Part shown: positions 2,590 through 58,013 of the stretch, in pieces | Layout of the letters: each line of letters starts with the position of its first letter | How positions within the stretch are numbered: the first letter of the stretch is position 1 | Assembly: GCA_958295665.1 (NCBI GenBank) | Contig: OY282560.1 | Coordinates: 54,932,333-54,996,332, forward strand | Source: Tipula vernalis | Lineage: Eukaryota > Arthropoda > Insecta > Diptera > Tipulidae | Direction: 5' to 3' | Length of the DNA: 64,000 nt | The notes under the pieces: generated by a model | Told to the model about the DNA's origin: nothing | What the model saw: the letters and a program-made list of their open reading frames with translations, nothing else | The model's database searches: none | Translations under genes and position numbers: made by a program

Positions 2590-2735
2590 AACAACTTTAT
2601 CTAAAATTAATTTTAGAACCCCAATTCCATTGCACATGTCAAATTTCATTACAAACTGACGGACGGACATTTTTTTTTTGCTATTCAGGAGCTTTCAAAA
2701 CGTCGAGAAAAATGGTTTTGGAAAATCATTTCAAA
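2590..2735 (-). repeat. Dispersed repeat copy (108-bp family plus flanking block)
   Basis: On the minus strand, about 2600-2660 reads like the 108-bp unit seen at 48617-49190: a block resembling AATTTGACATGTGCAATGGA followed by GGGTTCTAAAATT and TTTTAGATAAAGTT. Beside it are a GACGGACGGAC run, a T-run, and a block (2697-2720) containing AAAACGTCGAGAAAA and TGGTTTTGGA that recurs at 8314-8337. The shared order of these pieces suggests one dispersed repeat family of unknown class. Confidence 0.55.
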
Positions 2736-2743
2736 TCAATACT

Positions 2744-3010
2744 TAACCTAACTCCAAATCAACCATTTAATAAATCCCGAACCGAACAACTCATACCCCA
2801 ATGTGCCCAACTCCACATTTATTTTCCAACCCAATCCCAAAAATTACTCGATTCGAAAGCTACATGCGTGTATAAACTCAACTCAATTTAACCTCCTACT
2901 AAACCCTAAACTCGACCTCAAATTAATCCCTAGCCGAACTTCCCTCTCAAATCCAACTCAATTTCAACTCAAACCCCACTCACCATCATACCTAATAGCA
3001 ACGTACAATT
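2744..3010. repeat. CAACTC-rich degenerate minisatellite tract
   Basis: The plus strand is strongly biased to C and A with recurring AACTCAA, CCAACTC and CCCAA words (for example around 2779-2815 and 2876-2990). There is no fixed period, so it looks like a decayed simple repeat. The 69-codon frame inside it is compositionally trivial. The same word set appears at 7862-7975 on this strand and, as TTGAGTTG on this strand, at 28303-28715. Confidence 0.6.
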
Positions 3011-3029
3011 AACATAACCTTAAACAATC

Positions 3030-3475
3030 ATTCCATCATAATATTATTTTATTATACCATCATACCATCAGGACACTATAACATTAGAACATCATACAGT
3101 CACACCATCATATCTTAGTGACGACGCACCATCCCACCATGATGTTTATCTTACCATCAATCCAACACATCTTTATACCATCATACCATCATATCATCCT
3201 AATATCATACCACCACGCCATCATACCGTCCTAAAATTATTCCATCATACCATCGTACTATCGTATCATTATACCATCATATAATCATACCATCATACTG
3301 TCAGGCTATAATATTGTCCTACCATCCAACCGTCATACCATACCATTATACTATCCTACTATCATACCATCATACCATCAAATCATCGTACCGTCGTACA
3401 ATCATAACATCATACGATCATACTTTTATACCATCATACCGACATATCGTCATACCATTATACCATCATATAGGT
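3030..3475. repeat. CCATCATAC-type short tandem repeat
   Basis: About 440 bp of imperfect repeats built on the words ACCATCATA, CATACCATC and CCGTCATAC, with an approximate 9-bp step. Copies are heavily diverged, which argues for an old array. The frames crossing it (rich in SYH and TI) are by-products of the repeat. Confidence 0.8.
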
Positions 3476-3587
3476 TTTAAGCTTCAAATAGATCTTTTAA
3501 CACTTTAAATTGAACTCTTTACATTTCAAATTGAACCTTTTACATTTCAAATGAAACCCTTAGCAAATTATGTGAATGGTCAATTAA

Positions 3588-4000
3588 GATGGAGCTTGGC
3601 TATTCCTTAACAGATTCTGATCAAATTTGACATGTGCATTGGAAATGAGATTCTAAATTGGTTTTTGGATAAAGTTCTGTATTATTTTCAATAAGAATAT
3701 AACTAAGCTATTTTTAGCCGATTATGATGAATTTTGACGCCGACGAATAAAAGGAAATGTGAGCCAAAAATTATTTTTAGACAAGGTTATGAGAAATATG
3801 TCAAGAGGTTATTAGAAATATTATTTTAAATCCTCACCATAATCGGTTAGGGAATATCAAAGTTGCATTCAACTACTAGTAATTATGAAATCAAATTTAA
3901 TCATAATCGGTTCAGAAATAGGCAAGTTCTATCATACTTGGCCATATTCCAGAATATCATCAAAAATCATTTTAGAATCCCAATTCATCTGCGTAAGCGA
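3588..4000. repeat. Inverted cluster of 108-bp family units
   Basis: Two diverged plus-strand units (about 3588-3705 and 3710-3800) are followed by minus-strand units (about 3860-4000). The plus copies carry GATGGAGCTTGG, GAGATTCTAAA and GGATAAAGTTCTG. The minus copies read CTTGGCCATATTCCAGAAT and CATTTTAGAATCCCAA, the reverse complement of the unit found at 48617-49190. The head-to-head layout could form a large imperfect hairpin. The minus arm runs directly into the truncated LINE at about 4000. Confidence 0.65.
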
Positions 4001-10003: not shown

Positions 10004-10005
10004 TA

Positions 10006-10028
10006 CATTCTGTCAAAAAAGTACCGGG
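10006..10028 (+). repeat. Left terminal inverted repeat
   Basis: Begins CATTCTGTC and contains GTCAAAAAAGTACCGGG. It pairs with 27218-27240 in reverse complement at 21 of 23 positions. A TA precedes it. Confidence 0.85.
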
Positions 10029-13000
10029 AATTGTGCTTATCAACTGTGCTATAGCCCACAAGTTTTTGGGCGGCAAAAATCTAAAATGGTCCGATTACGA
10101 TGGTTGATACCTCTATCAATAGGTTTCGGGACCTGTAATTGCTGTGACAATTTTCATTTTGATTGCTCGATTATTTCTAAACATTTCTTAGAAAATTTAA
10201 TTTTATTGAAAATTAACTGTGCTATAGCCCACAAGTTTTTGGGCGGCAAAAATCTAAAATGCTCCGATTACGATGGTTGATACCTCTATCAATAGGTTTC
10301 GGGACCTGTAATTGCTGTGACAATTTTCATTTTGATTGCTCGATTATTTCTAATCATTTCTTAGAAAATTCAATTTTATTGAAAATTAACTGTGCTATAG
10401 CCCACAATTTTTTGGGCGGCAAAAATCTAAAATGGTCCGATTACGATGGTTGATACCTCTATCAATAGGTTTCGGGACCTATAATTGCTGTGACAATTTT
10501 CATTTTGATTGCTCGATTATATCTAAACATTTCTTAGAAAATTCAATTTTATTGAAAATCAAGTGTGCTACAGCCCACAAGTTTTTGGGCGGCAAAAATC
10601 TAAAATGGTCCGATTACGATGGTTCATACCTCTATCAATAGGTTTCGGTACCTGTAATTGCTGTGACAATTTTCATTTTGATTGCTCGATAAGTTCTAAA
10701 CATTTCTTAGAAAATTCAATTTTATTGAAAATTAACTGTGCTATAGCCCACAACTTTTTGGGCGGCAAAAATCTAAAATTCTCCGATTACGATGGTTGAT
10801 ACCTCTATCAATAGGTTTCGGTACCTGTAATTGCTGTGACAATTTGAATTTTGATTGCTCGATTATTTCTAAACATTTCTTAGAAAATTCAATTTTATTG
10901 AAAATTAAATGTGTTATAGCCCACAAGTTTTTGGGCGGCAAAAATCTAAAATGCTCCGATTACGATGGTTGATACCTCTATCAATAGGTTTCGGGACCTG
11001 TAATTGCTGTGACAATTTTCATTTTGATTGCTCGATTATTTCTAAACATTTCTTAGAAAATTCAATTTTATTGAAAATCAACTGTGCTATAGCCCACAAG
11101 TTTTTGGGCGGCAAAAATCTAAAATGTTCCGATTACGATGGTTGATACCTCTATCAATAGGTTTCGGGACCTGTAATTGCTGTGACAATTTTCATTTTGA
11201 TTGCTCGATTATTTCTAAACATTTCTTAGAAAATTCAATTTTATTGAAAATTAACTGTTTTATAGCCCACAAGTTTTTGGGCGGCAAAAATCTAAAATGG
11301 TCCAATTACGATGGTTGATACCTCTATCAATAAGTTTCGGGACCTGTAATTGCTGTGACAATTTTCCTTTTTATTGCTCGATTATTTCTAAACATTTCTT
11401 AGAAAATTCAATTTTATTGAAAATGAACTGTGCTATAGCCCACAAGTTTTTGGGCGGCAAAAATTTAAAATGGTCCGATTTCGATGGTTGATACCTCTAT
11501 CAATAGGTTTCGGGACCTGTAATTGCTGTGACAATTTTCATTTTGATTGCTCGATTATTTCTAAACATTTCGTAGAAAATTCAATTTTATTGAAAATGAA
11601 CTGTGCTATAGCCCACAAGTTTTTGGGCGGCAAAAATCTAAAATGGTCCGATTACGATGGATGATACCTCTATCAATAGGTTTCGGGACCTGTAATTGCT
11701 GTGACAATTTTCATTTTGATTGCTCGATTATTTATAATCATTTCTTAGAAAATTCAATTTTATTGAAAATTAACTGTGCTATAGCCCACAAGTTTTTGGG
11801 CGGCAAAAATCTAAAATGGTCCGATTACGATGGTTAATACCTCTATAAATAGGTTTCGGGACCTGTAATTGCTGTGACAATTTTCATTTTGATTGCTCGA
11901 TTATTTCTAAACATTTCTTAGATAATTCAATTTTATTGAAAATCAACTGTGCTATAGCCCACAAGTTTTTGGGCGGCAAAAATCTAAAATGTTCCGATTA
12001 TGATGGTTGATACCTCTATCAATAGGTTTCGGGACCTGTAATTGCTGTGACAATTTTCATTTTGATTGCTCGATTATTTCTATACATTTCTTAGAAAATT
12101 CAATTTTATTGAAAATTAACTGTGCTATAGCCCACAAGTTTTTGGGCGGCAAAAATCTAAAATGGGCCGATTACGATGGTTGATACCTCTATAAATAGGT
12201 TTCGGGACCTGTAATTGCTGTGACAATTTTCATTTTGATTGCTCGATTATTTCTAAACATTTCTTAGAAAATTCAATTTTATTGAAAATCAACTGTGGTA
12301 TAGCCCACAAGTTTTTGGGCGGCAAAAATCTAAAATGCTCCGATTACGATGGTTCATACCTCTATCAATAGGTTTCGGGACCTGTAATTGCTGTGACAAT
12401 TTTCATTTTGATTGCTCGATTATTTCTAAACATTTCTTAGAAAATTCAATTTTATTGAAAATCAACTGTGGTATAGCCCACAAGTTTTTGGGCGGCAAAA
12501 ATCTAAAATGCTCCGATTACGATGGTTCATACCTCTATCAATAGGTTTCGGGACCTGTAATTGCTGTGACAATTTTCATTTTGATTGCTTGATTATTTCT
12601 ATACATTTCTTAGAAAATTCAATTTTATTGAAAATTAACTGTGCTATAGCCCACAAGTTTTTGGGCGGCAAAAATCTAAAATGGGCCGATTACGATGGTT
12701 GATACCTCTATAAATAGGTTTCGGGACCTGTAATTGCTGTGACAATTTTCATTTTGATTGCTCGATTATTTCTAAACATTTCTTAGAAAATTCAATTTTA
12801 TTGAAAATCAACTGTGCTAAAACCCACAAGTTTTTGGGCGGCAAAAATCTAAAATGGTCCGATTACGATGGTTGATACCTCTATCAATAGGTTTCGGGAC
12901 CTGTAATTGCTGTGACAATTTTCATTTTGATTGCTCGATTATTTCTAAACATTTCTTAGAAAATTCAATTTTATTGAAAATTAACTGTGCTATAGCCCAC

Positions 13001-13199
13001 AAGTTTTTGGGCGGCAAAAATCTAAAATGGTCCGATTACGATGGTTGATACCTCTATCAATAGGTTTCGGGACCTGTAATTGCTGTGACAATTTTCATTT
13101 TGATTGTTAGATTATTTCTAAACATTTCTTAGAAAATTCAATTTTATTGAAATTTAACTGTGGTATAGCCCACAAGTTTTTGGGCGGGAAAAATCTAAA

Positions 13200-14100
13200 A
13201 TGGTCCGATTACGATGGTTGATACCTCTATCAATAGGTTTCGGGACCTGTAATTGCTGTGACAATTTTCATTTTGATTGCTCGATTATTTTTGAACATTT
13301 CTTAGAAAATTCAATTTTATTGAAAATCAACTGTGCTATAGCCCACAAGTTTTTGGGCGGCAAAAATATAAAATTCTCCGATTACGATAGTTGATACCTC
13401 TATCAGTAGGTTTCGGGACCTGTAATTGCTGTGACAATTTTCATTTTGCAAGTTTTTGGGCGGCAAAAATCTAAAATGCTCCGATTATGATGTTTGATAC
13501 CTCTATCAATAGGTTTCGGGACCTGTAATTGCTGTGAAAATTTTCATTTTGATTGCTCGATTATTTCTAAACATTTCTTAGAAAATTCAATTTTATTGAA
13601 AATCAACTGTGCTATAGCCCACAAGTTTTTGGGCGGCAAAAATCTAAAATGGTCCGATTACGATGGTTGATACCTCTATCAATAGGTTTCGGGACCTGTA
13701 ATTGCTGTGACAATTTTCATTTTGATTGTTAGATTATTTCTAAACATTTCTTAGAAAATTCAATTTTATTGAAATTTAACTGTGGTATAGCCCACAAGTT
13801 TTTGGGCGGGAAAAATCTAAAATGGTCCGATTACGATGGTTGATACCTCTATCAATAGGTTTCGGGACCTGTAATTGCTGTGACAATTTTCATTTTGATT
13901 GCTCGATTATTTTTGAACATTTCTTAGAAAATTCAATTTTATTGAAAATCAACTGTGCTATAGCCCACAAGTTTTTGGGCGGCAAAAATATAAAATTCTC
14001 CGATTACGATAGTTGATACTTCTATCAGTAGGTTTCGGGACCTGTAATTGCTGTGACAATTTTCATTTTGCAAGTTTTTGGGATGCAAAAATCTAAAATG
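13200..14100 (+). repeat. 622-bp higher-order duplication in the satellite
   Basis: The block around 13200-13480 recurs at 13822-14100 with the same private variants (a TTTGAACATT change, ATATAAAATTCTCC, CAGTAGG, and the 70-bp deletion that joins CATTTTG to CAAGTTTTT). The 622-bp offset equals four monomers minus 70 bp, so a block carrying one truncated monomer was copied as a unit. Confidence 0.85.
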
Positions 14101-15479
14101 CTCCGATTATGATGTTTGATACCTCTATCAATAGGTTTCGGGACCTGTAATTGCTGTGAAAATTTTCATTTTGATTGCTCGATTATTTCTAAACATTTCT
14201 TAGAAAATTCAATTTTATTGAGAACCAAGTGTGCTAAAGCCCACAATTTTTTGGGTGGCAAAAATCTAAATTTCCCCGATTACGATGGTTGATACCACTA
14301 TTAATAGGTTTCGGGACCTGTAATTGCTGTGACAATTTTCATTTTGATTGCTCGATTATTTCTAAACATTTCTTAGAAAATTCAATTTTATTGAAAATCA
14401 ACTGTGCTATAGCCCACAAATTTTTGGGCGACAAAAATCTAAAATGCTCCGACTACGATGGTTGATACCTCTATCAATAGGTTTCGGGACCTGTAATTGC
14501 TGCGACAATTTTCATTTTGATTTTCAAATTATTTCTTAACATTTCTTAGAAAATTCAATATAATTGAAAATCAACTGTGCTATAGCCCACAAGTTTTTGG
14601 GCGGCAAAAATCTAAAATGGTCCGATTACGATGGTTGATACCTCTATCAATAGGTTTCGGGACCTGTAATTGCTGTGACAATTTTCATTTTGATTGCTTG
14701 ATTATTTCTAAACATTTCTTAAGAAATTCAATTTTATTGAAAATTAACTGTGCTATAGCCCACAAGTTTTTGGGCGGCAAAAATCTAAAATGCTCCGACT
14801 ACGATGGTTGATACCTCTATCAATAGGTTTCGGGACCTGTAATTGCTGTGACAATTTTCATTTTGATTTCTAGAGTATTTCTAAACATTTCTTAGAAAAT
14901 TCAATTTTATTGAAAATCAACTGTGCTATAGCCCACAAGTTTTTGGGCGGCAAAAATCTAAAATGGTCCGATTACGATGGTTGATACCTCTATCAATAGG
15001 TTTCGGGACCTGTAATTGCTGTGACAATTTGCATTTTGATTGCTCGATTATTTCTAAACATTTCTTAGAAAATTCAATTTTATTGAAAATCAACTGTGTT
15101 AAAGCCCACAAATTTTTGGGCGGCAAAAATCTAAAATGGTCCGATTACGATGGTTGATACCTCTATCAATAGGTTTCGGGACCTGTAATTGCTGTGACAA
15201 TTTTCATTTTGATTGCTCGATTATTTCTAATCATTTTTTAGAAAATTCAATTTTTTTGAAAATCAACTGTGCCACTGTGTATAGCCCACAAGTTTTTGGC
15301 CGGCAAAAATCTAAAATGGTCCGATTACGATGGTTGATACCTCTATCAATAGGTTTCGGGACCTGTAATTGCTGTGACAATTTTTATTTTGATTGCTGGA
15401 TTATTTCTAAACATTTTTTAGAAAATTCAATTTTATTGAAAATCAACTGTGCTATAGCCCACAAGTTTTTGGGCGGCAA

Positions 15480-16345
15480 AAAATCTAAAATGCTCCGACT
15501 ACGATGGTTGATACCTCTATCAATAGGTTTCGGGACCTGTAATTGCTGCGACAATTTTCATTTTGATTTCTAGATTATTTCTAAACATTTCTTAGAAAAT
15601 TCAATTTTATTGAAAATCAACTGTGCTATAGCCCACAAGTTTTTGGGCGGAAAAAATCTTAAATGCTCCGATTACGATGGTTGATACCTCTATCAATAGG
15701 TTTCGGGACCTGTAATTGCTGTGACAATTTTCATTTTGATTGCTCGATTATTTCTAAACATTTCTTAGAAAATTCAATTTTATTGAAAATTAACTGTGCT
15801 ATAGCCCACAAGTTTTTGGGCGGCAAAAATCTAAAATGCTCCAACTACGATGGTTGATACCTCTATCAATAGGTTTCGGGACCTGTAATTGCTGCGACAA
15901 TTTTCATTTTGATTTCTAGATTATTTCTAAACATTTCTTAGAAAATTCAATTTTATTGAAAATCAACTGTGCTATAGCCCACAAGTTTTTGGGCGGAAAA
16001 AATCTTAAATGCTCCGATTACGATGGTTGATACCTCTATCAATAGGTTTCGGGACCTGTAATTGCTGTGACAATTTTCATTTTGATTGCTCGATTATTTC
16101 TAAACATTTCTTAGAAAATTCAATTTTATTGAAAATTAACTGTGCTATAGCCCACAAGTTTTTGGGCGGCAAAAATCTAAAATGCTCCAACTACGATGGT
16201 TGATACCTCTATCAATAGGTTTCGGGACCTGTAATTGCTGCGACAATTTTCATTTTGATTTCTAGATTATTTCTAAACATTTCTTAGAAAATTCAATTTT
16301 ATTGAAAATCAACTGTGCTATAGCCCACAAGTTTTTGGGCGGCAA
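15480..16345 (+). repeat. 346-bp (two-monomer) higher-order repeat
   Basis: A dimer with private variants (GGAAAAAATCTTAAATGC at 15649 and 15995; GCTCCAACTACG at 15837 and 16183) occurs twice at an offset of exactly 346 bp, two monomers. This indicates a recent unequal exchange. Confidence 0.8.
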
Positions 16346-17565
16346 AAATCTAAAATGGTCCGATTACGATGGTTGATACCTCTATCAATAGGTTTCGGGA
16401 CCTGTAATTGCTGTGACAATTTGCATTTTGATTGCTCGATTATTTCTAATCATTTTTTAGAAAATTCAATTTTATTGAAAATCAACTGTGCTATAGCCCA
16501 CAAGTTTTTGGGCGGCAAAAATCTAAAATGGTCCGATTACGATGGTTCATACCTCTATCAATAGGTTTCGGGACCTGTAATTGCTGTGACAATTTTTATT
16601 TTGATTGCTCGATTATTTCTATACATTTCTTAGAAAATTCAATTTTATTGAAAATTAACTGTGTTATAGCCCACAAGTTTTTGGGCGGAAAAAATCTAAA
16701 ATGCTCCGATTACGATGGTTGATACCTCTATCAATAGGTTTCGGGACCTGTAATTGTTGTGACAATTTTTATTTTGATTGCTCGATTATTTCTAAACATT
16801 TCTTAGAAAATTCAATTTTTTTGAAAATCAACTGTGCTATAGCCCACAAGTTTTTGGGCGGCAAAAATCTAAAATGCTCCGATTACGATGGTTGATACCT
16901 CTATCAATAGGTTTCGGGACCTGTAATTGCTGCGACAATTTTCATTTTGATTTCTAGATTATTTCTAAACATTTCTTAGAAAATTCAATTTTATTGAAAA
17001 TCAACTGTGCTATAGCCCACAAGTTTTTGGGCGGCAAAAATCTAAAATGGTCCGATTACGATGGTTGATACCTCTATCAATAGGTTTCGGGACCTGTAAT
17101 TGCTGTGACAATTTGAATTTTGATTGCTCGATTATTTCTAATCATTTTTTAGAAAATTCAATTTTATTGAAAATCAACTGTGCTATAGCCCACAAGTTTT
17201 TGGGCGGCAAAAATCTAAAATGCTCCGACTACGATGGTTGATACCTCTATCAATAGGTTTCGGGACCTGTAATTGCTGCGACAATTTTTATTTTGATTTC
17301 TAGATTATTTCTAAACATTTCTTAGAAAATTCAATTTTATTGAAAATCAACTGTGCTATAGCCCACAAGTTTTTGGGCGGCAAAAATCTAAAATGCTCCG
17401 ATTACGATGGTTGATACCTCTATCAATAGGTTTCGGGACCTGTAATTGCTGCGACAATTTTCATTTTGATTTCTAGATTATTTCTAAACATTTCTTAGAA
17501 AATTCAATTTTATTGAAAATCAACTGTGCTATAGCCCACAAGTTTTTGGGCGGCAAAAATCTAAA

Positions 17566-18780
17566 ATGGTCCGAATACGATGGTTGATACCTCTATCAAT
17601 AGGTTTCGGGACCTGTAATTGCTGTGACAATTTGAATTTTGATTGCTCGATTATTTCTAATCATTTTTTAGAAAATTCAATTTTATTGAAAATCAACTGT
17701 GCTATAGCCCACAAGTTTTTGGGCGGCAAAAATATAAAATGCTCCGACTGCGATGGTTGATACCTCTATCAATAGGTTTCGGGACCTGTAATTGCTGCGA
17801 CAATTTTTATTTTGATTTCTAGATTATTTCTAAACATTTCTTAGAAAATTCAATTTTATTGAAAATCAACTGTGCTATAGCCCACAAGTTTTTGGGCGGC
17901 AAAAATCTAAAATGGTCCGATTACGATGGTTGATACCTCTATCAATAGGTTTCGGGACCTGTAATTGCTGTAACAATTTGCATTTTGATTGCTCGATTAT
18001 TTCTAATTATTTTTTAGAAAATTCAATTTTATTGAAAATCAACTGTGCTATAGCCCACAAGTTTTTGGGCGGCAAAAATCTAAAATGGTCCGATTACGAT
18101 GGTTGATACCTCTATCAATAGGTTTCGGGACCTGTAATTGCTGTGACAATTTTCATTTTGATTGCTCGATTATTTCTAATCATTTTTTAGAAAATTCAAT
18201 TTTATTGAAAATCAACTGTGCTATAGCCCACAAGTTTTTGGGCGGCAAAAATCTAAAATGGTCCGATTACGATGGTTGATACCTCTATCAATAGGTTTCG
18301 GGACCTGTAATTGCTGCGACAATTTTCATTTTGATTTCTAGATTATTTCTAAACATTTCTTAGAAAATTCAATTTTATTGAAAATCAACTGTGCTATAGC
18401 CCACAAGTTTTTGGGCGGCAAAAATCTAAAATGGTCCGAATACGATGGTTGATACCTCTATCAATAGGTTTCGGGACCTGTAATTGCTGTGACAATTTGA
18501 ATTTTGATTGCTCGATTATTTCTAATCATTTTTTAGAAAATTCAATTTTATTGAAAATCAACTGTGCTATAGCCCACAAGTTTTTGGGCGGCAAAAATCT
18601 AAAATGCTCCGACTGCGATGGTTGATACCTCTATCAATAGGTTTCGGGACCTGTAATTGCTGCGACAATTTTTATTTTGATTTCTAGATTATTTCTAAAC
18701 ATTTCTTAGAAAATTCAATTTTATTGAAAATCAACTGTGCTATAGCCCACAAGTTTTTGGGCGGCAAAAATCTAAAATGC
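17566..18780 (+). repeat. 865-bp (five-monomer) higher-order repeat
   Basis: The variants GGTCCGAATACG followed by GCTCCGACTGCG occur at 17566-17760 and again at 18431-18625, an offset of 865 bp, or five monomers. Related blocks occur at 17047 and 19123. Confidence 0.75.
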
Positions 18781-21700
18781 TCCGATTACGATGGTTGATA
18801 CCTCTATCAATAGGTTTCGGGACCTGTAATTGTTGTGACAATTTTCATTTTGATTGCTCGATTATTTTTTAACATTTCTTAGAAAATTCAATTTTATTGA
18901 TAATCAACTGTGCTATAGCCCACAAGTTTTTGGGCGGCAAAAATCTAAAATGGTCCGATTACGATGGTTGATACCTCTATCAATAGGTTTCGGGACCTGT
19001 AATTGCTGCGACAATTTTCATTTTGATTTCTAGATTATTTCTAAACATTTCTTAGAAAATTCAATTTTATTGAAAATCAACTGTGCTATAGCCCACAAGT
19101 TTTTGGGCGGCAAAAATCTAAAATGGTCCGATTACGATGGTTGATACCTCTATCAATAGGTTTCGGGACCTGTAATTGCTGTGACAATTTGAATTTTGAT
19201 TGCTCGATTATTTCTAATCATTTCTTAGAAAATTCAATTTTATTGAAAATCAACTGTGCTATAGCCCACAAGTTTTTGGGCGGCAAAAATCTAAAATGCT
19301 CCGACTACGATGGTTGATACCTCTATCAATAGGTTTCGGGACCTGTAATTGCTGTGACAATTTTCATTTTGATTTCTAGATTATTTCTAAACATTTCTTA
19401 GAAAATTCAATTTTATTGAAAATCAACTGTGCTATAGCCCACAAGTTTTTGGGCGGCAAAAATCTAAAATGGTCCGATTACGATGGTTGATACCTCTATC
19501 AATAGGTTTCGGGACCTGTAATTGCTGTGACAATTTGCATTTTGATTGCTCGATTATTTCTAATTATTTTTTAGAAAATTCAATTTTATTGAAAATCAAC
19601 TGTGCTATAGCCCACAAGTTTTTGGGGGGCAAAAATCTAAAATGGTCCGATTACGATGGTTGATACCTCTATCAATAGGTTTCGGGACCTGTAATTGCTG
19701 TGACAATTTTCATTTTGATTGCTCGATTATTTTTAATCATTTTTTAGAAAATTCAATTTTATTGAAAATCAACTGTGCTAGAGCCCACAAGTTTTTGGGC
19801 GGCAAAAATCTAAAATGCTCCGATTACGATGGTTGATACCTCTATCAATAGGTTTCGGGACCTGTAATTGCTGTGACAATTTTCATTTTGATTGCTCGAT
19901 TATTTCTAAACATTTCTTAGAAAATTCAATTTTATTGAAAATTAACTGTGCTATAGCCCACAAGTTATTGGGCGGCAAAAATCTAAAATGCTCCGATTAC
20001 GATGGTTGATACCTCTATCAATAGGTTTCGGGACCTGTAATTGCTGTGACAATTTTCATTTTGATTGCTCGATTATTTCTAATCATTTCTTAGAAAATTC
20101 AATTTTATTGAAAATCAACTGTGCTATAGCCCACAAGTTTTTGGGCGGCAAAAATCTAAAATGCTCCGATTACGATGGTTGATACCTCTATCAATAGGTT
20201 TCGGGACCTGTAATTGCTGTGACAATTTTGTTTTTGATTGCTCGATTATTTCTAATCATTTCTTAGAAATTCAATTTTATTGAAAATCAACTGTGCTAGA
20301 GCCCACAAGTTTTTGGGCGGCAAAAATCTAAAATGCTCCGATTACGATGGTTGATACCTCTGTCAATAGGTTTCGGGACCTGTAATTGCTGTGACAATTT
20401 TCATTTTGATTGCTCGATTATTTCTAAACATTTCTTAGAAAATTCAATTTTATTGAAAATCAACTGTGTTAAAGCCCACAAGTTTTTGGGTGGCAAAAAT
20501 CTAAAATGGTCCGATTACGATGGTTGATACCTCTATCAATAGGTTTCGGGACCTGTAATTGCTGTGACAATTTTCATTTTGATTACTCGATTATTTCTAA
20601 ACATTTCTAAGAAAATTCAATTTTATTGAAAACCAACTGTGCTAAAGCCCACAAGTTTTTGGGCGGCAAAAATCTAAAATGGTCCGATTACGATGGTTGA
20701 AACCTCTATCAATAGGTTTCGGGACCTGTAATTGCTGTGACAATTTTCATTTTGGTTGCTCGATTATTTCTAAACATTTCTTAGAAAATTCAATTTTATT
20801 GAAAATCAACTGTGCTATACGATGGTTGATACCTCTATCAATAGGTTTCGGGACCTGTAATTGCTGTGACAATTTTCATTTTGATTGCTCGATTATTTCT
20901 AAACATTTCTTAGAAAATTCAATTTTATTGAAAATCAACTGTGCTATAGCCCACAAGTTTTTGGGCGGCAAAAATCTAAAATGGTCCGATTACGATGGTT
21001 GATACCTCTATCAATAGGTTTCGGGAACTGTAATTGCTGTAACAATTTTCATTTTGATTGCTCGATTATTTCTAAACATTTCTTAGAAAATTCAATTTTA
21101 TTGAAAATCAACTGTGCTATAGCCCACAAGTTTGTGGGTGGCAAAAATCTAAAATGGTCCGATTACGATGGTTGATACCTCTATCAATAGGTTTCGGGAA
21201 CTGTAATTGCTGTGACAATTTAAATTTTGATTGCTCGATTACTTCTAATCATTTCTTAGAAAATTCAATTTTATTGAAAATCAACTGTGCTATAGCCCAC
21301 AAGTTTTTGTGCGGCAAAAATCTAAAATGCTCCGATTACGATGGTTGATACCTCTATCAATAGGTTTCGGGACCTGTAATTGCTGTGACAATTTTCATTT
21401 TGATTGCTCGATAATTTCTAAACATTTCTTAGAAAATTCAATTTTATTGAAAATCAACTGTGCTATAGCCCACAAGTTTTTGGGCGACAAAAATCTAAAA
21501 TGCTCCGATTAAGATGGTTGATACCTCCATCAATAGGTTTCGGGACCTGTAATTGCTGTGACAATTTTCATTTTGATTGCTCGATTATTTCTAAACATTT
21601 CTTAGAAAATTCAATTTTATTGAAAATCAACTGTGCTATAGCCCACAAGTTTTTGGGCGGCAAAAATCTAAAATGGTCCGATTATGATGGTTGATACCTC

Positions 21701-22018
21701 TATCAATAGGTTTCGGGACCTGTAATTGCTGTGACAATTTTCATTTTGATTGCTCGATTATTTCTAAACATTTCTTAGAAAATTCAATTTTATTGAAAAT
21801 CAACTGTGCTATAGCCCACAAGTTTTTGGGCGGCAAAAATCTAAAATGGTCCGATTATGATGGTTGATACCTCTATCAATAGGTTTCGGGACCTGTAATT
21901 GCTGTGACAATTTTCATTTTGATTGCTCGATTATTTCTAAACATTTCTTAGAAAATTCAATTTTATTGAAAATCAACTGTGCTATAGCCCACAAGTTTTT
22001 GGGCGGCAAAAATCTAAA

Positions 22019-25000
22019 ATGGTCCGATTACGATGTTTGATACCTCTATCAATAGGCTCCGGGACCTGTAATTGCTGTGACAATTTTCATTTTGATTGCT
22101 CGATTATTTCTAAACATTTCTCAGAAAATTCAATTTTATTGAAAATTAACTGTGCTATAGCCCACAAGTTTTTGGGCGGCAAAAATCTAAAATGCTCCGA
22201 TTACAATGGTTGATACCTCTATCAATAGGTTTCGGGACCTGTAATTGCTGTGACAATTTTTAATTTTGATTGCTCGATTATTTCTAATATTTTTTAGAAA
22301 ATTCAATTTTATTGAAAATCAACTGTGCTATAGCCCACAAGTTTTTGGGCGGCAAAAATCTAAAATGCTTCGATTACGATGGTTGATACCTCTATAAATA
22401 GGTTTCGGGACCTGTAATTGCTGTGACAATTTTCATTTTGATTGCTCGATTAGTTCTAAACATTTCTTAGAAAATTCAATTTTATTGAAAATCAACTGTG
22501 CTATAGTCCACAAGTTTTTGGGCGGCAAAAATCTAAAATGGTCCGATTACGTTGGTTGATACCTCTATCAATATGTTTCGGGACCTGTAATTGCTGTGAC
22601 AATTTTCATTTTGATTGCTCGATTATTTCTAAACATTTCTTAAAAAATTCAATTTTATTGAAAATCAACTGTGCTATAGCCCACAAGTTTTTGGGCGGCA
22701 AAAATCTAAAATTCTCCGATTACGATGGTTGATACCTCTATCAATAGGTTTCGGGACCTGTAATTGCTGTGATAATTTTCATTTTGATTGCTCGATTATT
22801 TCTAAACATTTCTTATAAAATTCAATTTTATTGAAAATCAATTGTGCTATAGCCCACAAGTTTTTGTGCGGCAAAAATCTAAAATGCTCCGATTACGATG
22901 GTTGATACCTCTATCAATAGGTTTCGGGACCTGTAATTGCTGTAACAATTTTCATTTTGATTGCTCGATTATTTCTAAACATTCCTTAGAAAATTCAATT
23001 TTATTGAAAATCAACTGTGCTATAGTCCACAAGTTTTTGGGCGGCAAAAATCTAAAATGGTCCGATTACGTTGGTTGATACCTCTATCAATATGTTTCGG
23101 GACCTGTAATTGCTGTGACAATTTTCATTTTGATTGCTCGATTATTTCTAAACATTTCTTAGAAAATTCAATTTTATTGAAAATCAACTGTGCTATAGCC
23201 CACAAATTTTTGGGCGGCAAAAATCTAAAATTCTCCGATTACGATGGTTGATACCTCTATCAATAGGTTTCGGGACCTGTAATTGCTGTGATAATTTTCC
23301 TTTTGATTGCTCGATTATTTCTAAACATTTCTTAGAAAATTCAATTTTATTGAAAATCAATTGTGCTATAGCCCACAAGTTTTTGTGCGGCAAAAATCTA
23401 AAATGCTCCGATTACGATGGTTGATACCTCTATCAATAGGTTTCGGGACCTGTAATTGCTGTGACAATTTTCATTTTGATTGCTCGATTATTTCTAATCA
23501 TTTCTTAGAAAATTCAATTTTATTGAAAATCAACTGTGCTATAGCCCACAAGTTTTTGGGCGGCCAAAATCTAAAATGGTCCGATTTCGATGGTTGATAC
23601 CTCTATCAATAGGTTTCGGGACGTGTAATTGCTGTGACAATTTTCATTTTGATTGCTCGATTATTTCTAAACATTTCTTAGAAAATTCAATTTTATTGAA
23701 AATCAACTGTGCTAAAGCCCACAAGTTTTTGGGTGGCAAAAATCTTAAATGGTCGGATTACGATGGTTGATACCTCTATCAATAGGTTTCGGGACCTGTA
23801 ATTGCTGTGACAATTTTTATTTTGATTGCTCGATTATTTCTAAACATTTCTTAGAAAATTCAATTTTATTGAAAATCAACTGTGCTATAGCCCACAAGTT
23901 TTTGGGCGGCAAAAATCTAAAATGCTCCGATTACGATGGTTGATATCTCTATCAATAGGTTTCGGGACCTGTAATTGCTGTGACAATTAACATTTTGATT
24001 GCTCGATTATTTCTAAACATTTCTTAGAAAATTCAATTTTATTGAAAATCAACTGTGCTATAGCCCACAAGTTTTTGGGCGGCAAAAATCTAAAATGCTC
24101 CGATTACGATGGTTGATACCTCTATCAATAGGTTTCGGGACCTGTAATTGCTGTGACAATTTTCATTTTGATTGCTCGATTATTTCTAATCATTTCTTAG
24201 AAAATTCAATTTTATTGAAAATCAACTGTGCTATAGCCCACAAGTTTTTGGGCGGCAAAAATCTAAAATGGTCCGATTACGATGTTTGATACCTCTATCA
24301 ATAGGCTCCGGGACCTGTAATTGCTGTGACAATTTTCATTTTGATTGCTCGATTATTTCTAAACATTTCTCAGAAAATTCAATTTTATTGAAAATTAACT
24401 GTGCTATAGCCCACAAGTTTTTGGGCGGCAAAAATCTAAAATGCTCCGATTACAATGGTTGATACCTCTATCAATAGGTTTCGGGACCTGTAATTGCTGT
24501 GACAATTTTTATTTTGATTGCTCGATTATTTCTAAACATTTCTTAGAAAATTCAATTTTATTGAAAATCAACTGTGCTATAGCCCACAAGTTTTTGGGCG
24601 GCAAAAATCTAAAATGCTCCGATTACGATGGTTGATATCTCTATCAATAGGTTTCGGGACCTGTAATTGCTGTGACAATTAACATTTTGATTGCTCGATT
24701 ATTTCTAAACATTTCTTAGAAAATTCAATTTTATTGAAAATCAACTGTGCTATAGCCCACAAGTTTTTGGGCGGCAAAAATCTAAAATGCTCCGATTACG
24801 ATGGTTGATACCTCTATCAATAGGTTTCGGGACCTGTAATTGCTGTGACAATTTTCATTTTGATTGCTCGATTATTTCTAATCATTTCTTAGAAAATTCA
24901 ATTTTATTGAAAATCAACTGTGCTATAGCCCACAAGTTTTTGGGCGGCAAAAATCTAAAATGGTCCGATTACGATGTTTGATACCTCTATCAATAGGCTC

Positions 25001-25673
25001 CGGGACCTGTAATTGCTGTGACAATTTTCATTTTGATTGCTCGATTATTTCTAAACATTTCTCAGAAAATTCAATTTTATTGAAAATTAACTGTGCTATA
25101 GCCCACAAGTTTTTGGGCGGCAAAAATCTAAAATGCTCCGATTACAATGGTTGATACCTCTATCAATAGGTTTCGGGACCTGTAATTGCTGTGACAATTT
25201 TTAATTTTGATTGCTCGATTATTTCTAATATTTTTTAGAAAATTCAATTTTATTGAAAATCAACTGTGCTATAGCCCACAAGTTTTTGGGCGGCAAAAAT
25301 CTAAAATGCTTCGATTACGATGGTTGATACCTCTATAAATAGGTTTCGGGACCTGTAATTGCTGTGACAATTTTCATTTTGATTGCTCGATTAGTTCTAA
25401 ACATTTCTTAGAAAATTCAATTTTATTGAAAATCAACTGTGCTATAGTCCACAAGTTTTTGGGCGGCAAAAATCTAAAATGGTCCGATTACGTTGGTTGA
25501 TACCTCTATCAATATGTTTCGGGACCTGTAATTGCTGTGACAATTTTCATTTTGATTGCTCGATTATTTCTAAACATTTCTTAGAAAATTCAATTTTATT
25601 GAAAATCAATTGTGCTATAGCCCACAAGTTTTTGGGCGGCAAAAATCTAAAATTCTCCGATTACGATGGTTGA
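22019..25673 (+). repeat. 17-, 13- and 4-monomer block duplications
   Basis: The variant set GATGTTTGATACC, AATAGGCTCCGGG and TTTCTCAG marks monomers at 22019, 24268 and 24960 (offsets 2249 and 692 bp, or 13 and 4 monomers). The following block with TTAATTTTGATTG, AATATTTTTTAG and ATATGTTTCG at 22019-22732 recurs at 24960-25673 (2941 bp, 17 monomers). Copying of multi-monomer segments is therefore frequent in the distal half. Confidence 0.8.
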
Positions 25674-27125
25674 TACCTCTATCAATAGGTTTCGGGACCT
25701 GTAATTGCTGTGATAATTTTTATTTTGATTGCTCGATTATTTCTAAACATTTCTTAGAAAATTCAATTTTATTGAAAATCAATTGTGCTATAGCCCACAA
25801 GTTTTTGTGCGGCAAAAATCTAAAATGCTCCGATTACGATGGTTGATACCTCTATCAATAGGTTTCGGGACCTGTAATTGCTGTAACAATTTTCATTTTG
25901 ATTGCTCGATTATTTCTAAACATTTCTTAGAAAATTCAATTTTATTGAAAATCAACTGTGCTATAGCCCACAAGTTTTTGGGCGGCAAAAATCTAAAATG
26001 CTCCGATTACGATGGTTGATACCTCTATCAATAGGTTTCGGGACCTGTAATTGCTGTGACAATTTTCATTTTGATTGCTCGATTATTTCTAAACATTTCT
26101 TAGAAAATTCAATTTTATTGAAAATCAACTGTGCTATAGCCCACAAGTTTTTGGGCGGCAAAAATCTAAAATGCTCCGATTACGATGGTTGATATCTCTA
26201 TCAATAGGTTTCGGGACCTGTAATTGCTGTGACAATTTTCATTTTGATTGCTCGATTATTTCTAAACATTTCTTAGAAAATTCAATTTTATTGAAAATCA
26301 ACTGTGCTATAGCCCACAAGTTTTTGGGCGGCAAAAATCTAAAATGCTCCGATTACGATGGTTGATACCTCTATCAATAGGTTTCGGGACCTGTAATTGC
26401 TGTGACAATTTTTATTTTGATTGCTCGATTATTTCTAAACATTTCTTAGAAAATTCAATTTTATTGAAAATCAACTGTGCTATAGCCCACAAGTTTTTGT
26501 GCGGCAAAAATCTAAAATGCTCCGATTACGATGGTTGATACCTCTATCAATAGGTTTCGGGACCTGTAATTGCTGTAACAATTTTCATTTTGATTGCTCG
26601 ATTATTTCTAAACATTTCTTAGAAAATTCAATTTTATTGAAAATCAACTGTACTATAGCCCACAAGTTTTTGTGCGGCAAAAATCTAAAATGCTCCGATT
26701 ACGATGGTTGATACCTCTATCAATAGGTTTCGGGACCTGTAATTGCTGTGACAATTTTCATTTTGATTGCTCGATTATTTCTAATCATTTCTTAGAAAAT
26801 TCAATTTTATTGAAAATCAACTGTGGTATAGCCCACAAGTTTTTGGGCGGCCAAAATCTAAAATGGTCCGATTACGATGGTTGATACCTCTATCAATAGG
26901 TTTCGGGACCTGTAATTGCTGTGACAATTTTCATTTTGATTGCTCGATTATTTCTAAACATTTCTTAGAAAATTCAATTTTATTGAAAATCAACTGTGCT
27001 ATAGCCCACAAGTTTTTGGGCGGCAAAAATCTAAAATTCTCCGATTACAATGGTTGATACCTCTATCAATAGGTTTCGGGACCTGTAATTGCTGTGACAA
27101 TTTTTATTTTGATTGCTCGATTATT

Positions 27126-27217
27126 GTGCACTAATGAGGTCGTCTGACCTAACCAACTGCTGTAAACAAACTGGTTGATCGCACTCACAGTTGACATCCT
27201 AATAAAAGACAATCCTA
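27126..27217. other. Unique subterminal DNA of the mariner-like element
   Basis: These 92 bp lie between the last satellite monomer and the right inverted repeat and do not match the satellite. They are probably the original inner sequence of the element. No such long unique stretch exists at the left end, where only 12 bp (10029-10040) separate the inverted repeat from the array. Confidence 0.7.
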
Positions 27218-27240
27218 CCCGGTACTTTTTTGACCGAGTG
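27218..27240 (-). repeat. Right terminal inverted repeat
   Basis: In reverse complement it starts CACTCGGTC and runs through GTCAAAAAAGTACCGGG. A TA follows at 27241-27242, matching the TA at 10004-10005. Confidence 0.85.
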
Positions 27241-27242
27241 TA

Positions 27243-27949
27243 AGTAAAGTTTCGATTATACATTTCTTATTTTGGATTGAATTTTTTTGACTTTCACTTA
27301 AATAATTCCGAATGTTTAATCATTTTAAGAAAGTTCATTAGTCAATTGAACGACAAGTCAACAAAAACAGATCTTCGAGTCAAAATTAACCCAAATGAGA
27401 TGGATAATATTAGTTGTTGAAATTGCTCCTACCACTGCCTCTACTTTCTTTGCAACGAAGTATCTAAAGCAATACGTCTTTGTGTTTTGATTTAAGAGCG
27501 TTTGGTAATTCAAAAATGATTCTAGATCAAAATTTAAGGTTATCTCTGAACATTGGCTTTCTACATTTACAATCTACACTTAATGAACAAATTATAAGAA
27601 GCATCGCATTAACAAACTAGTAATTCTGCTATCAATTGAAGGCTCGTCATTATTATTCAATGATATCACGTTGAAAAGGTGATATCCCCTCTAAACACAA
27701 ATTTACGGCTCGGTTAAATATTTTGTTATTCCATGGATACAAGAGAACTCTTGCCTATATTATAATACACAATTTTAAATATTTTTTATTTTGTGGACAC
27801 CACCTCCATCTTCCAAGATGACGGTTTTTGGCTTTTTGAATCTTTTTCACCAACCAAACAAAAAAAAACTAACATGGCCGATTCTTCTATCATCTTGATG
27901 CGCTAGTAAACCAGAAATAAATAACCATTGCGACATCTATGATTTAATC
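27243..27949. other. AT-rich DNA, no gene supported
   Basis: No convincing coding signal. A short inverted repeat (GATATCA and TGATATC words around 27660-27686) is present. The stretch may be an eroded continuation of the Gypsy remnant that follows on the minus strand, but no motif proves it. Confidence 0.45.
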
Positions 27950-28180
27950 AGTTAACCATAGCAGATAAATTTAACATTTTAGCGACCAAGTAAACCTTAC
28001 GACCACTCACTCATACGTTGAATACTTTCAATGGCAAACTCTTTTGATACAAATTGATTACCGTTGTCTGACGCTAGATGCTTTGGTACACCTACCTAAA
28101 CAAGGCAGACTTCAGTTCAGACACCGCCTTAAGTACGACGAACTTTGTAAACGTGTCGACTAACACTATGAAATAATAAT
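27950..28180 (-). pseudogene. Gypsy integrase catalytic-core scrap
   Basis: Minus-strand translation gives VDTFTKFVVLKAVSELKSA and, after a frame change, a segment resembling SDNGNQFVSKEFAIES, the first and second aspartate regions of a Gypsy-type integrase DDE core, which inserts element DNA into the genome. Stops and frameshifts break it every 15-30 residues and no LTRs are nearby. It is a different copy from the element at 29790-41580, whose own core reads SDQGPAIRKEFDNY. Confidence 0.65.
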
Positions 28181-28302
28181 CATATAATATATCTGCTTTC
28201 CGCAAGCACTACGGCAAAGTACCCACGTTCTGAAATAGACATTCTAATAAAACTTTGAATTAACCCATTTATTAGTATTTCTTCGTTCTTCTGAACGAAT
28301 TA

Positions 28303-28715
28303 TGAGGTTGAGTTAAGAGTTGAGTTCAGGTTGAGTATAGGTTTCTTGGAAGTTGGTTTGGCGTTTAGTTTAGGATTTGATTGATGGTTTTATTGCGGTC
28401 AAGTTGGTGTTGAGTTGTTGTTGAGTTGCGGTTGATTTAGTCGTTATGATTTACGTTAGTTGGTGATTAAGTCGTGCAGTGGGTTGAGATGGGCGTTGTG
28501 TTCATTGTTGCGTTGACGGTTGGTTTTGGGTTGAGTAAGAGGTTTGAGAGTTGAGTTTTTAGTTTCCGAATGGAGTTGATCTTGGGATTGAGCTGTCGTT
28601 GAGTTTGGAGTTGAGTAGACTGTTGCGACTTGGTTCAAGCTGGGGTCGAGTTTGAGTTGAGTTGGGGTTAAGCTAGCTTGAGTTAAGGTTGTGTGAGAGG
28701 AACCGAAGACCATTG
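28303..28715. repeat. TTGAGTTG-rich degenerate tract
   Basis: G/T-rich plus strand with recurring GTTGAGTTG, GGTTGAG and GAGTTGAG words. It is the reverse complement of the word set at 2744-3010 and 7862-7975, so the same simple repeat exists in both orientations. The 85-codon minus-strand frame is low-complexity (T, S, Q, N, L, P) and follows from the repeat. Confidence 0.6.
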
Positions 28716-29529
28716 GTAAGCGGCTTTGAGGAGGTTATAATTTTAGTGTGAAAAATACAGACGTAAGTGAATAATTATTAAAAATCATTATTTTTTAAAG
28801 GTTTCAATTTCTATGAATGTTAGAATTTCAAAAAATCGTCAAAGCGGAGGTTTTGCGCAGTAGCGCCATCATTTAAGGTATAAAGCAAATTGAAATAATA
28901 TTTTAAAAATTTGTTTTGGGATATCACGCCAGAATCCCATGAAACTCTCATTTTATCGGTATGGGACTTCTTATCAAATAATCTGAATAAAGGCTATGTA
29001 TCCCGGCTTGAAAAATTCATAAATGCATGAGCAACACAACATAATATGAAGATGGGTGCAACTATTGGAATGCTCCTTTTCAGTTTTGTTTGCTGGTAAA
29101 AAATCACCTAATTTATTTAATTCCGACAGTGTCACAAGAATTGTAAGTTTTTCGACAAGTTTAAACTTTTGAAACTTTTGAAAAAGCATAGTTCAATTTG
29201 AATATGGCTTTTCATGGCGAGACTAGTATGAATTTGGCTGCGTAAATAGTTTAAGTATTTTTATTGCTTTGTTTTGGCATAAAGCTGTTAAAATCTGATC
29301 CCTCTCCTTATATTTGCTGATTTTATTTCTGTTTTCTGTGAGATCTACTTACCGACTGGTCCATTTTAAGCGATGGATTAACCCGTATGTCGAAACTAAA
29401 ATTTTAACTTTCTAATTAAGGATTAAGTAACCGCGATGAAATACGTTTTGGTGTTTAATTGATTATAGATTTAAACGCCAATTTTGTAAATTACAGTTAC
29501 ACAGAATAGATTTCATGTCAGTGCACAAT
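28716..29529. other. AT-rich DNA, no gene supported
   Basis: No motif, RNA gene or transposon end recognised. Short frames only. Confidence 0.5.
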
Positions 29530-30345: not shown

Positions 30346-31242
30346 TCATAAGTCCACTCGCTCGTTAACAAACCAAACTGCTGCTTCTTGTTCTAAAACC
30401 TCCTGAATTCTTACTTCTTCAGGACACCTCATCTTCATACCCGTAAGTAATTGAAATGGGCTCACGCCAATGCTTCTTTGGTAAGAATTGTTCAAATATC
30501 TTTGAAACCTATCCACATATTTGTACCATTCTTCTGGGTTTGATAACGCCAATTTCGTCAACGCGGGTATAATAATTCGATTGATGCGCTCTACTTGTCC
30601 GTTTCCTGAAGACATTCCCACAGTCACAGAGAATTACTTGATACCCTCCTTATCGCAGTAATTGTCAAATTCCTTTCGAATTGCAGGGCCCTGATCTGAG
30701 ATTATTACTGCTGGATTCCCGAAAATCGTCTTTTGTAACTCCAATTTGGCAATCGTTTCTTTAGTAGTCATGGTCTTCGTCGGATACAGCCACACAAACT
30801 TTGTAAAGCCGTCAATTACACAGAGGATATATTTGTACTGCTTTTTCGTAGCCACCAAGCTACCCAGATAGTCCACGTGATAAGTACTCAACGAGACTTT
30901 GCCTTTCGGAATTGAATTAAGTAGTCCGTCTTGTTTGTCCGCTTTTCGTTCTGCCAGAATGCATTCCTCAGTTTTCTTAATAGAAAAATGTCCTTGTTCA
31001 TGGTACACCTTAATGACCTCTGCTTGCATTTTTCTCGGGACAACTATCAACGGACTACCTAGAATAAATTTAAACAAAATTCCATTAGTGATTATATAAT
31101 CATTATACGGGCCTGATTTTAAGAGCTCCAATATCGCCTTTAAATGTTCATCGTCTTTCTGTGCCGCCTTTATTCTCGCTGTAACACCTTCCTCAATGAG
31201 TAAAACAACCGGACTCCTGCTTAATGCATCCACGTGTTGCAT
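30346..31242 (-). pseudogene. Gypsy integrase, frameshifted
   Basis: Catalytic core of the DDE integrase that joins element ends to target DNA. The first part (30634-31242) starts with HVDALSRSP, the usual RNase H to integrase connector, then shows a zinc-finger-like H-x3-H (HEQGHFSIKK), the first aspartate (YHVDYLG) and the second (SDQGPAIRKEFDNY). The two cysteines expected after the histidines are absent: the sequence runs ILAERKADKQDGLLN instead, suggesting a small deletion. The second part (30346-30627) holds the glutamate in SGNGQVERINR. A frame break between 30627 and 30634 separates the parts. Confidence 0.88.
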
Positions 31243-31311
31243 TCGTCGGGATGGACGGTGCTCTAGTTTATAATTAAATTCTTGCAGCTGCAGTGCCCAT
31301 CCTGCAATTCT

Positions 31312-31857
31312 TTACGTTAATTCCTTTCTCTCCATTGTATATTTAAAATCAGCGCAATCCGTGGCTACAACAAATTCCAATCCCAAGAGATATACACGAA
31401 ATTTCTTTAACGCTCTAACAATCGCCAGAACCTCAAGTTCATAGCTACTATACCGTTCTTCACAGTCGGATGTTTTCTTGCTATAGAAATAAACAGGATG
31501 AATTGCTCCTAACCCGATCTTGCACGCGTCCGTGTGAAGCTGTGTCTCAGCACTGGCAGAGTAAATTCGGAGAACCGGTTCTTTCACCAATATTTGTTTT
31601 AGCTGGTTAAAGGAATTCTTCTGTTCGGCTTCGAACATAAACACCGTATCCGTTCTCAGAAGATCTGAGAGAGTTTTTGCATATATAGCATAGTTTTTCA
31701 CAAATTTGCAAAAATATCCCGTTAGGCCTAAAAACGACTGGAGTTTCTTGAAAGTATTCGGTTCTGGAAACTTTAGTATGTCCTCCTTCTTACTCTTACA
31801 TGGCCGGAGCCACCCACTTTCAATTTCGTACCCTAGGTATTCAATGCAGGAACACAA
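31312..31857 (-). pseudogene. Gypsy RT thumb and RNase H
   Basis: Shows YLGYEI, the conserved LQSFLGLTGYFCKFVKNYA block linking RT to RNase H, then LHTDACKIGLGAI (RNase H first aspartate, TDA), YSSYELEVLAIVRALKKFRVYLLG (the glutamate) and VATDCADFKY (the second aspartate). The frame is open for 181 codons but is separated from the RT palm by a frame change at 31857-31877 and from the integrase at 31242-31312. Confidence 0.9.
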
Positions 31858-31876
31858 AAATTGACATTTGGACCAA

Positions 31877-32623
31877 TTAATCTGGAGTCCATGCTTTTCG
31901 GTTCAACCCGATTTCTAATCGAGTAATTCCTTCCTTCTCGTTTCCCGCTGGGTTTATTAGGTCATCCGTATAAATACACACTATCCCCAACGCGCTTAAT
32001 GGTTTAAATACATTGTTGATGAAGCGTTGGAATGCAGCTGGCGAGTTGTATAGGCCAAACGGTGCCCGTAAAAACTCGTAGTGACCCATCGGCGTAATGA
32101 AGGCAGTGTACTTATTGGAGCACTCTTCTACTAGAACGTGAAAAAACCCGTTTTGTAAATCTAAAGTAGAGAAAATAGAAGCACCTTGCAGCTGATCAAT
32201 TTGATCGTCCATTAGATTCATTGGATACCTGTCTTTGATGATTTTTTCATTAATTTTTCTGTAATCTATACAGAGTCGCTTGGAACCGTCTTTCTTTTTT
32301 GCCAAAACTATTGGACTAGCAAATTCTGAGTTACTATGTCTTATTATGCCTTCTTCCAGCCATTCCCGCACTTGTTTGTCAACAATAGTTTTTTCCAGCG
32401 GCGAAAGTCGTCGAGGCTTTTGGAAAATCGGTTTCTCATCATTTAAAATGATTTTCATTATCACATCATTTTCCAACTGGAGTCTTTGAGGAGTATAATT
32501 TACAATCATACCTTTGATAATTTCGGCATTGCTTCGGTTTCTAATGTGATTTAAATTGAGATCCACGTTGCCGTGGTCAATCGCCAAACAGAATTGTTCC
32601 GGTATAAATCGCTTCATTGTAAT
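31877..32623 (-). pseudogene. Gypsy reverse transcriptase palm and fingers
   Basis: Motifs in order: EWLEEGIIRHSNSEFASPIV, KKKDGSKRLCIDYRKIN, FSTLDLQNGFFHV (first catalytic aspartate), FLRAPFGLYNSPAAFQRF and CIYTDDLI (YTDD, both catalytic aspartates kept). The open frame starts inside the BEL LTR, so its first residues (before about 32623) are not Gypsy. Upstream sequence continues at 38908 on the far side of the BEL insertion. Confidence 0.9.
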
Positions 32624-33101
32624 TGTACGAACACTTTTGTACAAGGTGATATAAAACAAAAGCCACTTTACTTTTATTTAAATTTTATTCTTAATTGTTC
32701 TAATAATTTTTGTATTTGATGTGATGACTTCACTGGTTGAATCGCAAGAGGGGCAAAAAAAACCATTTTCTTTATTTAGAATATTTTTACAATTACAGTA
32801 GTACTAATGCTCTACGATAGGTGTAAAAAATAAAAGAGTATTAAACACATAAACGCACTCAATTCGAATGACAATTCGAATTGAGCTACAAATTGAATTG
32901 TCAAAAAATGATTTTTTAGGTTATACTCAACAGTGTTTACAATTGGATTAACACAAGCTAAGTTAAATTCTATACTGGATATTATACGTTATTAACCTTA
33001 CAATTGTTTATTTACAGGTATCCATCGATGACATCTTATTTCGACATATGTACATCTACAATTTGAGTTGAGTGAAATGACTGTGGAATCGAAGTTGAAC
33101 A
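32624..33101 (-). repeat. BEL-A 3' LTR
   Basis: 478 bp, near-identical to 38442-38907. It carries an extra 11 bp around 32803-32815. The polypurine tract borders it at 33102-33114. Confidence 0.93.
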
Positions 33102-33114
33102 TTCCGCCGCCCTT
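33102..33114 (-). promoter_or_regulatory. BEL-A polypurine tract
   Basis: On the element strand this reads AAGGGCGGCGGAA directly before the LTR. Such tracts prime plus-strand DNA synthesis. The GGGCGGCGGAA form is typical of BEL/Pao elements. Confidence 0.75.
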
Positions 33115-47756: not shown

Positions 47757-47790
47757 AGTATAAGTATAAGTATAAGCTATAAGTATATGC
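47757..47790 (+). repeat. (TATAAG)n microsatellite, right part
   Basis: About five units (AGTATAAGTATAAGTATAAG, then CTATAAGTATATG) continuing the array past the hAT element. The units at this end are slightly degenerate. Confidence 0.9.
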
Positions 47791-48600: not shown

Positions 48601-48616
48601 TAAGACATTTGTTTGG

Positions 48617-55382: not shown

Positions 55383-55385
55383 TTT

Positions 55386-58010: not shown

Positions 58011-58013
58011 TAG

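Follow-up and report, generated by a model that had tools for sequence, protein, structure and literature searches.

A satellite array between the ends of a Tc1/mariner-type transposon copy in Tipula vernalis, probably through entry of a pre-existing repeat

The present study analyzes a satellite array and the transposon ends that enclose it in Tipula vernalis (Diptera, Tipulidae), within a window of 64,000 nucleotides, by which is meant the whole stretch of DNA analyzed, from contig OY282560.1 of assembly GCA_958295665.1 (C3:54,932,333-54,996,332). The genome searched was this one assembly, 1.27 Gb in 340 contigs, of which C1, C2, and C3 are of chromosome size (464, 412, and 371 Mb). The array lies at positions 10039..27125 on the forward strand and consists of 100 monomers, the last one partial, with a period of 173 bp; 93 of the 99 intervals between its 100 anchors are exactly 173 bp. 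Outside it stands a pair of 23-bp terminal inverted repeats (TIRs) identical at 21 of 23 positions, the left one (CATTCTGTCAAAAAAGTACCGGG) at 10006..10028 on the forward strand and the right one (reading inward, CACTCGGTCAAAAAAGTACCGGG) at 27218..27240 on the reverse strand, and a TA immediately outside each (10004..10005 and 27241..27242) forms the apparent target duplication. An earlier description made from the letters alone, here called the sequence-only reading, had reported these inverted repeats with their outer TA and an array of about 17 kb built of a 173-bp monomer, and in these respects it was accurate; of the spacers it gave between TIRs and array, the 92 bp on the right stands, whereas the left one is 10 bp and not 12.

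The pairing of the two ends is better than chance would readily provide, with a best 23-bp inverted match of 19/23 in 2958 random placements of 60-bp against 150-bp stretches of the same window. The 17-bp TIR core occurs elsewhere in the window only with at least 5 mismatches, and genome-wide it has 320 exact occurrences (174 forward, 146 reverse), with 0 for a reversed control. The family to which the ends belong is dispersed, and 60 distinct places were read, the window included (68 loci when duplicates are counted): 40 on C1 came from the listed core matches, and the window and 19 others were found via the window's right end. All 68 fetched loci, duplicates included, match the family consensus, which is 685 bp long and was built from 19 copies that deviate from it at 4.9–8.4% of aligned sites. 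The window copy retains consensus positions 1–31, 505–602, and 661–685 in family order and orientation. On the left, the TA, the TIR, and the next 6 bases are identical to positions 1–31; on the right, the inner part of the transposon (27126..27219, forward strand) corresponds to positions 505–602 at 87.8% identity, beyond which about 58 bp of the consensus are missing. Without the array the element would measure about 142 bp, TIRs included, and very short internally deleted family copies free of any array do exist, for example one of 130 bp (L062). Judged by sequence comparison, both ends most likely belong to one TA-flanked, non-autonomous Tc1/mariner-type copy with internal deletions, i.e. 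a miniature inverted-repeat transposable element (MITE).

Three family copies were compared with Pfam domains, with a weak match to DDE_3 in L010 (E 8.7e-4), a weak match to a Mos1-type HTH_48 in L026 (E 0.016), both below curated cut-offs, and none in L027; the family accordingly resembles a Tc1/mariner-type transposon reduced by deletion. Its TIRs seem closer to the Tc1 end than to the Himar1 end, as 3 and 39 of 2000 shuffles aligned as well with the former and 642 and 1227 with the latter, both end sequences being primers given in a passage of PMC3680223. The small non-autonomous mariner element of the sequence-only reading is borne out as to autonomy and TA flanks and probably as to superfamily, with the reservation that “mariner” is a loose name for ends that align better with Tc1. 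Shorter TIR words in a literature sequence search matched four papers, one containing the Tc1 end primer and three that appeared unrelated, and long TIR and monomer words had no match there. Words from the TIR, the monomer, and the 92-bp part had 0 matches in viral contigs, and those from the monomer and the 92-bp part had 0 in prokaryote contigs. There was no Rfam match at the gathering threshold, and no Pfam match in six frames of 27126–28727. A Pfam match to a Rubivirus protein (E 1.3e-5) in an open frame within the array was dismissed as spurious, the frame being repeat sequence.

Besides the window, 59 family places were fetched, and all were free of the monomer, the best other matches in them having E of at least 0.15; comparison of the family consensus with the monomer gave nothing significant (best E 0.31). 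In genome similarity queries, each scored for its best 40 candidates, the window was the sole match to the right junction (monomer plus 92-bp part) among the best 40 of 610 and the sole match to the left junction (TIR plus monomer) among the best 40 of 401; another filled copy should have scored above the matches listed, with unscored candidates remaining. Copies holding 1–5 monomers between the same ends, which the sequence-only reading predicted, were seen neither in the 59 other places nor among the best 40 per junction, and no locus other than the window paired these TIRs with the monomer among those candidates, an outcome that reading had itself named as counting against it. A subterminal repeat common to the 92-bp part and the start of the monomer was also considered and set aside, as 75 of 1000 shuffles were as good with the monomer taken anywhere and the family consensus gave it no support.

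The satellite is common elsewhere in the genome. A monomer query returned 1125 candidates, the best 40 of which were all 99–100% identical over 173 bp and lay on C1, C2, and C3. Nine further array loci were sampled at 114 short stretches, some of them chosen to find edges; satellite was present in 84, with a mean identity of 97.9%. At C3:50.6 and at C1:24.6 Mb each of the 12 points sampled across 80 kb proved to be satellite, so that these arrays are longer than the one in the window. Four other arrays (10, 6, 8, and 6 monomers) gave the consensus of the window with the sole exception of site 51, where 30/30 of their monomers have G and those in the window are split among 45 G, 44 C, and 2 T; for this reason the C variant seems to be local and derived. 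A fifth consensus, based on 3 monomers from the left edge at C2:384, differed from that of the window at 11 sites. The near-identity of consensus across four arrays points to the window array as one branch of a satellite that has recently spread or is evolving in concert. At the C3:80.28 Mb edge (L169, L192) a young array grades into old monomers, most with 66–80% identity and a period of about 183 bp, and these divergent relatives are possibly the ancestral form of the monomer. Because the monomer is absent from the transposon family and common genome-wide, birth of the satellite within the transposon appears contradicted within the reach of the searches, and with it the proposal that the element's own internal repeat expanded in place.

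Within the array, 87 well-phased monomers differed from their consensus at a mean of 4.0 sites (2.3%), 6 of 93 being out of phase and excluded, and the ten outermost scored monomers differed at a mean of 3.2. Identical blocks of 749, 701, 499, 337, 329, and 321 bp recur at offsets of 4, 17, 2, 5, 1, and 13 monomers, the two longest within 21942..25583 on the forward strand (701 bp at 21942 and 24883; 749 bp at 23763 and 24455), and a further identical block of 415 bp recurs at an offset of 622 bp, i.e. three monomers plus one short unit of 103 bp. Since identical blocks stand at whole-monomer offsets, the array would appear to have been reshaped through homology-driven unequal exchange or conversion. 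Sharing of variants between monomers is elevated at lags 2–9, 12, 14, and 17 (z 2.0–4.6, exceeding 4 at lags 3, 4, 8, and 9), and immediate neighbors resemble random pairs in this respect (lag 1, z 0.3); exchange thus seems to move blocks of several monomers. A one-step burst was entertained on account of near star-like divergence (a ratio of pairwise to twice-to-consensus divergence of 0.88, or 0.93 without site 51), but the block copies and lag-shared variants show exchange. Monomer positions 158–172, which form the second small hairpin stem, vary at 0.3% versus about 2.1–2.5% in the remainder. Growth by core and linker from an element with a single core, an idea prompted by the lack of a 36-bp double-hairpin part of the monomer at the borders of the window array, fails in that the other edges fall at monomer phases 15 and 166 (C2:384), 161, 105, and 109, with no fixed phase.

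Taken together, patterns at this locus suggest that a satellite already present genome-wide probably entered a resident transposon copy of about 142 bp and was then reshaped by unequal exchange; that it landed in the transposon rather than being born there is argued from the occurrence of the repeat all over the genome. The resident would have been an internally deleted, non-autonomous Tc1/mariner-type copy already flanked by its TA duplication, satellite repeats would have integrated into its interior, plausibly by way of a repeat circle or during repair of a break with satellite DNA, and homology-driven unequal exchange would later have altered the array. The direct repeat ATTGTGC at both borders (10030..10036 and 27123..27129, both forward) is compatible with a staggered insertion of 7 bp. 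Because the left family piece terminates in AATTGT and the right piece starts with GTGC, ATTGTGC is the product expected from a deletion joining the two pieces at GT, and its 7-bp duplication upon insertion would account for both borders with few bases unexplained, which we treat as a lead. The order of events, the route of entry, and the interpretation of the 7-bp repeat as a scar of insertion are all three things that we infer. Several considerations weigh against this account. The TA duplication records insertion of the element alone, so that filling of the element beforehand is also compatible with it; an unfilled short copy with the predicted junction (CCGGGAATTGTGCACTAATGAGG) was not found in the 68 fetched loci; and the junction searches rest on the best 40 of 610 and the best 40 of 401 candidates. 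As for the border repeat itself, it is short and was recognized post hoc, at least 7 shared bases occur in about 0.7% of random 14-bp pairs, and the ATT at the right border also fits the monomer.

An unlikely alternative explanation could be that the element captured one or a few monomers elsewhere and transposed here already filled, creating the TA duplication, with the monomers expanding in place afterward. Intact TIRs and TA duplication would fit this sequence of events, as would crisp array edges whose monomers are not more diverged than inner ones and the evident exchange within the array, and a passage of PMC12628747 describes such a model, in which a pre-existing tandem repeat is captured and then grows, for the Xenopus element miDNA4; no second copy filled in like manner was seen, however, among the best 40 candidates per junction or in the 59 other family places. 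Very improbable, in contrast, is an origin of the monomer from the interior of this element, with this locus as the seed of the genome-wide satellite. The right inner part, read inward, does show a weak collinear match to the left inner end plus the first monomer, which 93 of 5000 shuffles equaled, but consensus and monomer share no significant match, the monomer is absent from 59/59 other family places, arrays at other loci are longer, the window's C variant at site 51 looks local and derived, and decayed relatives of the monomer with 70–80% identity and a period of about 183 bp are located at C3:80.28 Mb, away from any of these TIRs.

Least probable of all, in our estimation, is that two independent family copies flank the array by chance, each lacking its other end. 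In favor of it are the abundance of the family and the unequal agreement of the two sides with the consensus, which is complete over the 31 bp of the left piece but falls short at 8.4% of aligned sites in the right part; a perfect match over 31 bp is nevertheless expected about 1 time in 8 at 6.5% divergence and is not rare. The pieces are moreover complementary within one consensus, correct in order and orientation, both abutting the array and both with TA outside, and on this point the earlier claim of one element most likely holds.

Entry of a pre-existing satellite into a resident element may be compared with the only other array for which both edges were read, which spans 47 kb at about C2:384,217,535-384,264,708. 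It lies between inverted arms of another dispersed family, 93% identical over 1719 bp, at a spacing of 19 bp from the left arm and about 290 bp from the right. The arm, whose matches were drawn from the best 40 of 1089, is itself an imperfect palindrome (74–76% identity to its opposite strand). Among the matches listed there are eight places, including one whose arm is partial, in which opposed arms of this type stand 101–354 bp apart, leaving space for at most 2 monomers, as against 47 kb at C2:384; the remaining arms have no partner among those matches, perhaps because scoring stopped at the best 40. Both arrays with two known edges, therefore, are enclosed by inverted repeats, and the two transposon families concerned are unrelated; two of two is suggestive rather than proof in this repeat-rich genome. 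It is possible, but on balance doubtful, that the satellite preferentially integrates into or grows inside inverted-repeat transposons of any family, with hairpin-forming elements as landing or nucleation sites from which chromosome arms are colonized. Against such a rule are four arrays with a single edge read (C3:77.57, C2:340.98, C1:431.61, and C3:80.28 Mb), none of which matches the family in the window. Only the edge at C1:431.61 resembles the C2:384 arm, in short matches of 18–60 bp, the best being 48 bp at 81%. The flank at C2:340.98 (L190, position 1166) is a common repeat starting 2 bp from the array (best 40 of 1985 scored), with 39 other listed copies at 99% beginning at the same point, and probably represents a transposon that inserted into the array or right beside it.

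Other features of the window may be noted in their own right. About 245 tandem copies of ATAAGT occupy 44314–45784, with 99% matches, and a short stretch recurs at 47755–47792. Between 45803 and 47768 are inverted repeats rich in TTACCGGTAATATTACC, about 1.9 kb apart (26 nt at 88%, 40 nt at 78%), and repeats of the ATAAGT type directly outside both of them give the appearance of another inverted-repeat element beside a tandem array. A 108-bp tandem repeat of 5.3 copies lies at 48615–49190, with partial inverted matches at 2593–3962 near the left end of the window. Genes of Pao-type retrotransposons occur on both strands at 30634–38267 and 53466–60902, with Peptidase_A17, RVT_1, and integrase domains, DUF1759, and DUF5641.

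How new satellite arrays are seeded away from old ones is an open question on which this locus bears, as it retains both array borders together with a container whose family is known and what may be an insertion scar. Should unfilled alleles exist, the route and direction of entry and the rate of growth would become measurable, and recurrence in two unrelated inverted-repeat elements offers a landing-site rule that can be tested. A further implication is one of caution, since TIRs and a target duplication around an array are no proof that it was born in that transposon.

Satellites within transposons are already known, including in clam elements (described in a passage of PMC5139131), and what sets the present case apart is the absence of the repeat from the family of the element. 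A satellite array is described for miDNA4, a Tc1/mariner MITE of Xenopus (Scalvenzi and Pollet 2014), in passages of PMC12628747 and PMC9659126; the MITE ends of Tc1/mariner type, the array inside the element, and the proposed capture of a pre-existing repeat at direct repeats of at least 5 bp are all reminiscent of our locus, whereas in those passages the repeat is a component of the MITE, with one or a variable number of monomers, and here 59 other members are without it. The Tetris element of Drosophila virilis, in the portion of PMC4079207 that describes it, likewise has long arrays between the inverted ends of a non-autonomous transposon, but its repeat TIR-220 forms part of the TIRs themselves and occurs in ordinary copies. 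The oyster satellite CgiSat01, as given in part of PMC8268682, occurs in a standalone array of 232 monomers, and shorter arrays are borne by Helentrons according to an excerpt of PMC7492417; as here, satellite is found both within mobile elements and standing alone, but carriers in those accounts are many and of Helitron/Helentron type, compared with a single Tc1/mariner-type copy in the window. In Tribolium, as outlined in a section of PMC3411249, the major satellite is also present in TCAST transposon-like elements, which carry inverted repeats and a short duplication of the target, an arrangement similar to the present one, although satellite segments there form part of the inverted repeats with no long array between them. 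Because published arrays in these same accounts reach 66 copies in Tetris and 89 monomers in the longest element-associated array of CgiSat01, 100 monomers are not of another order, and the array in T. vernalis is large yet of the same order as published transposon-borne arrays.

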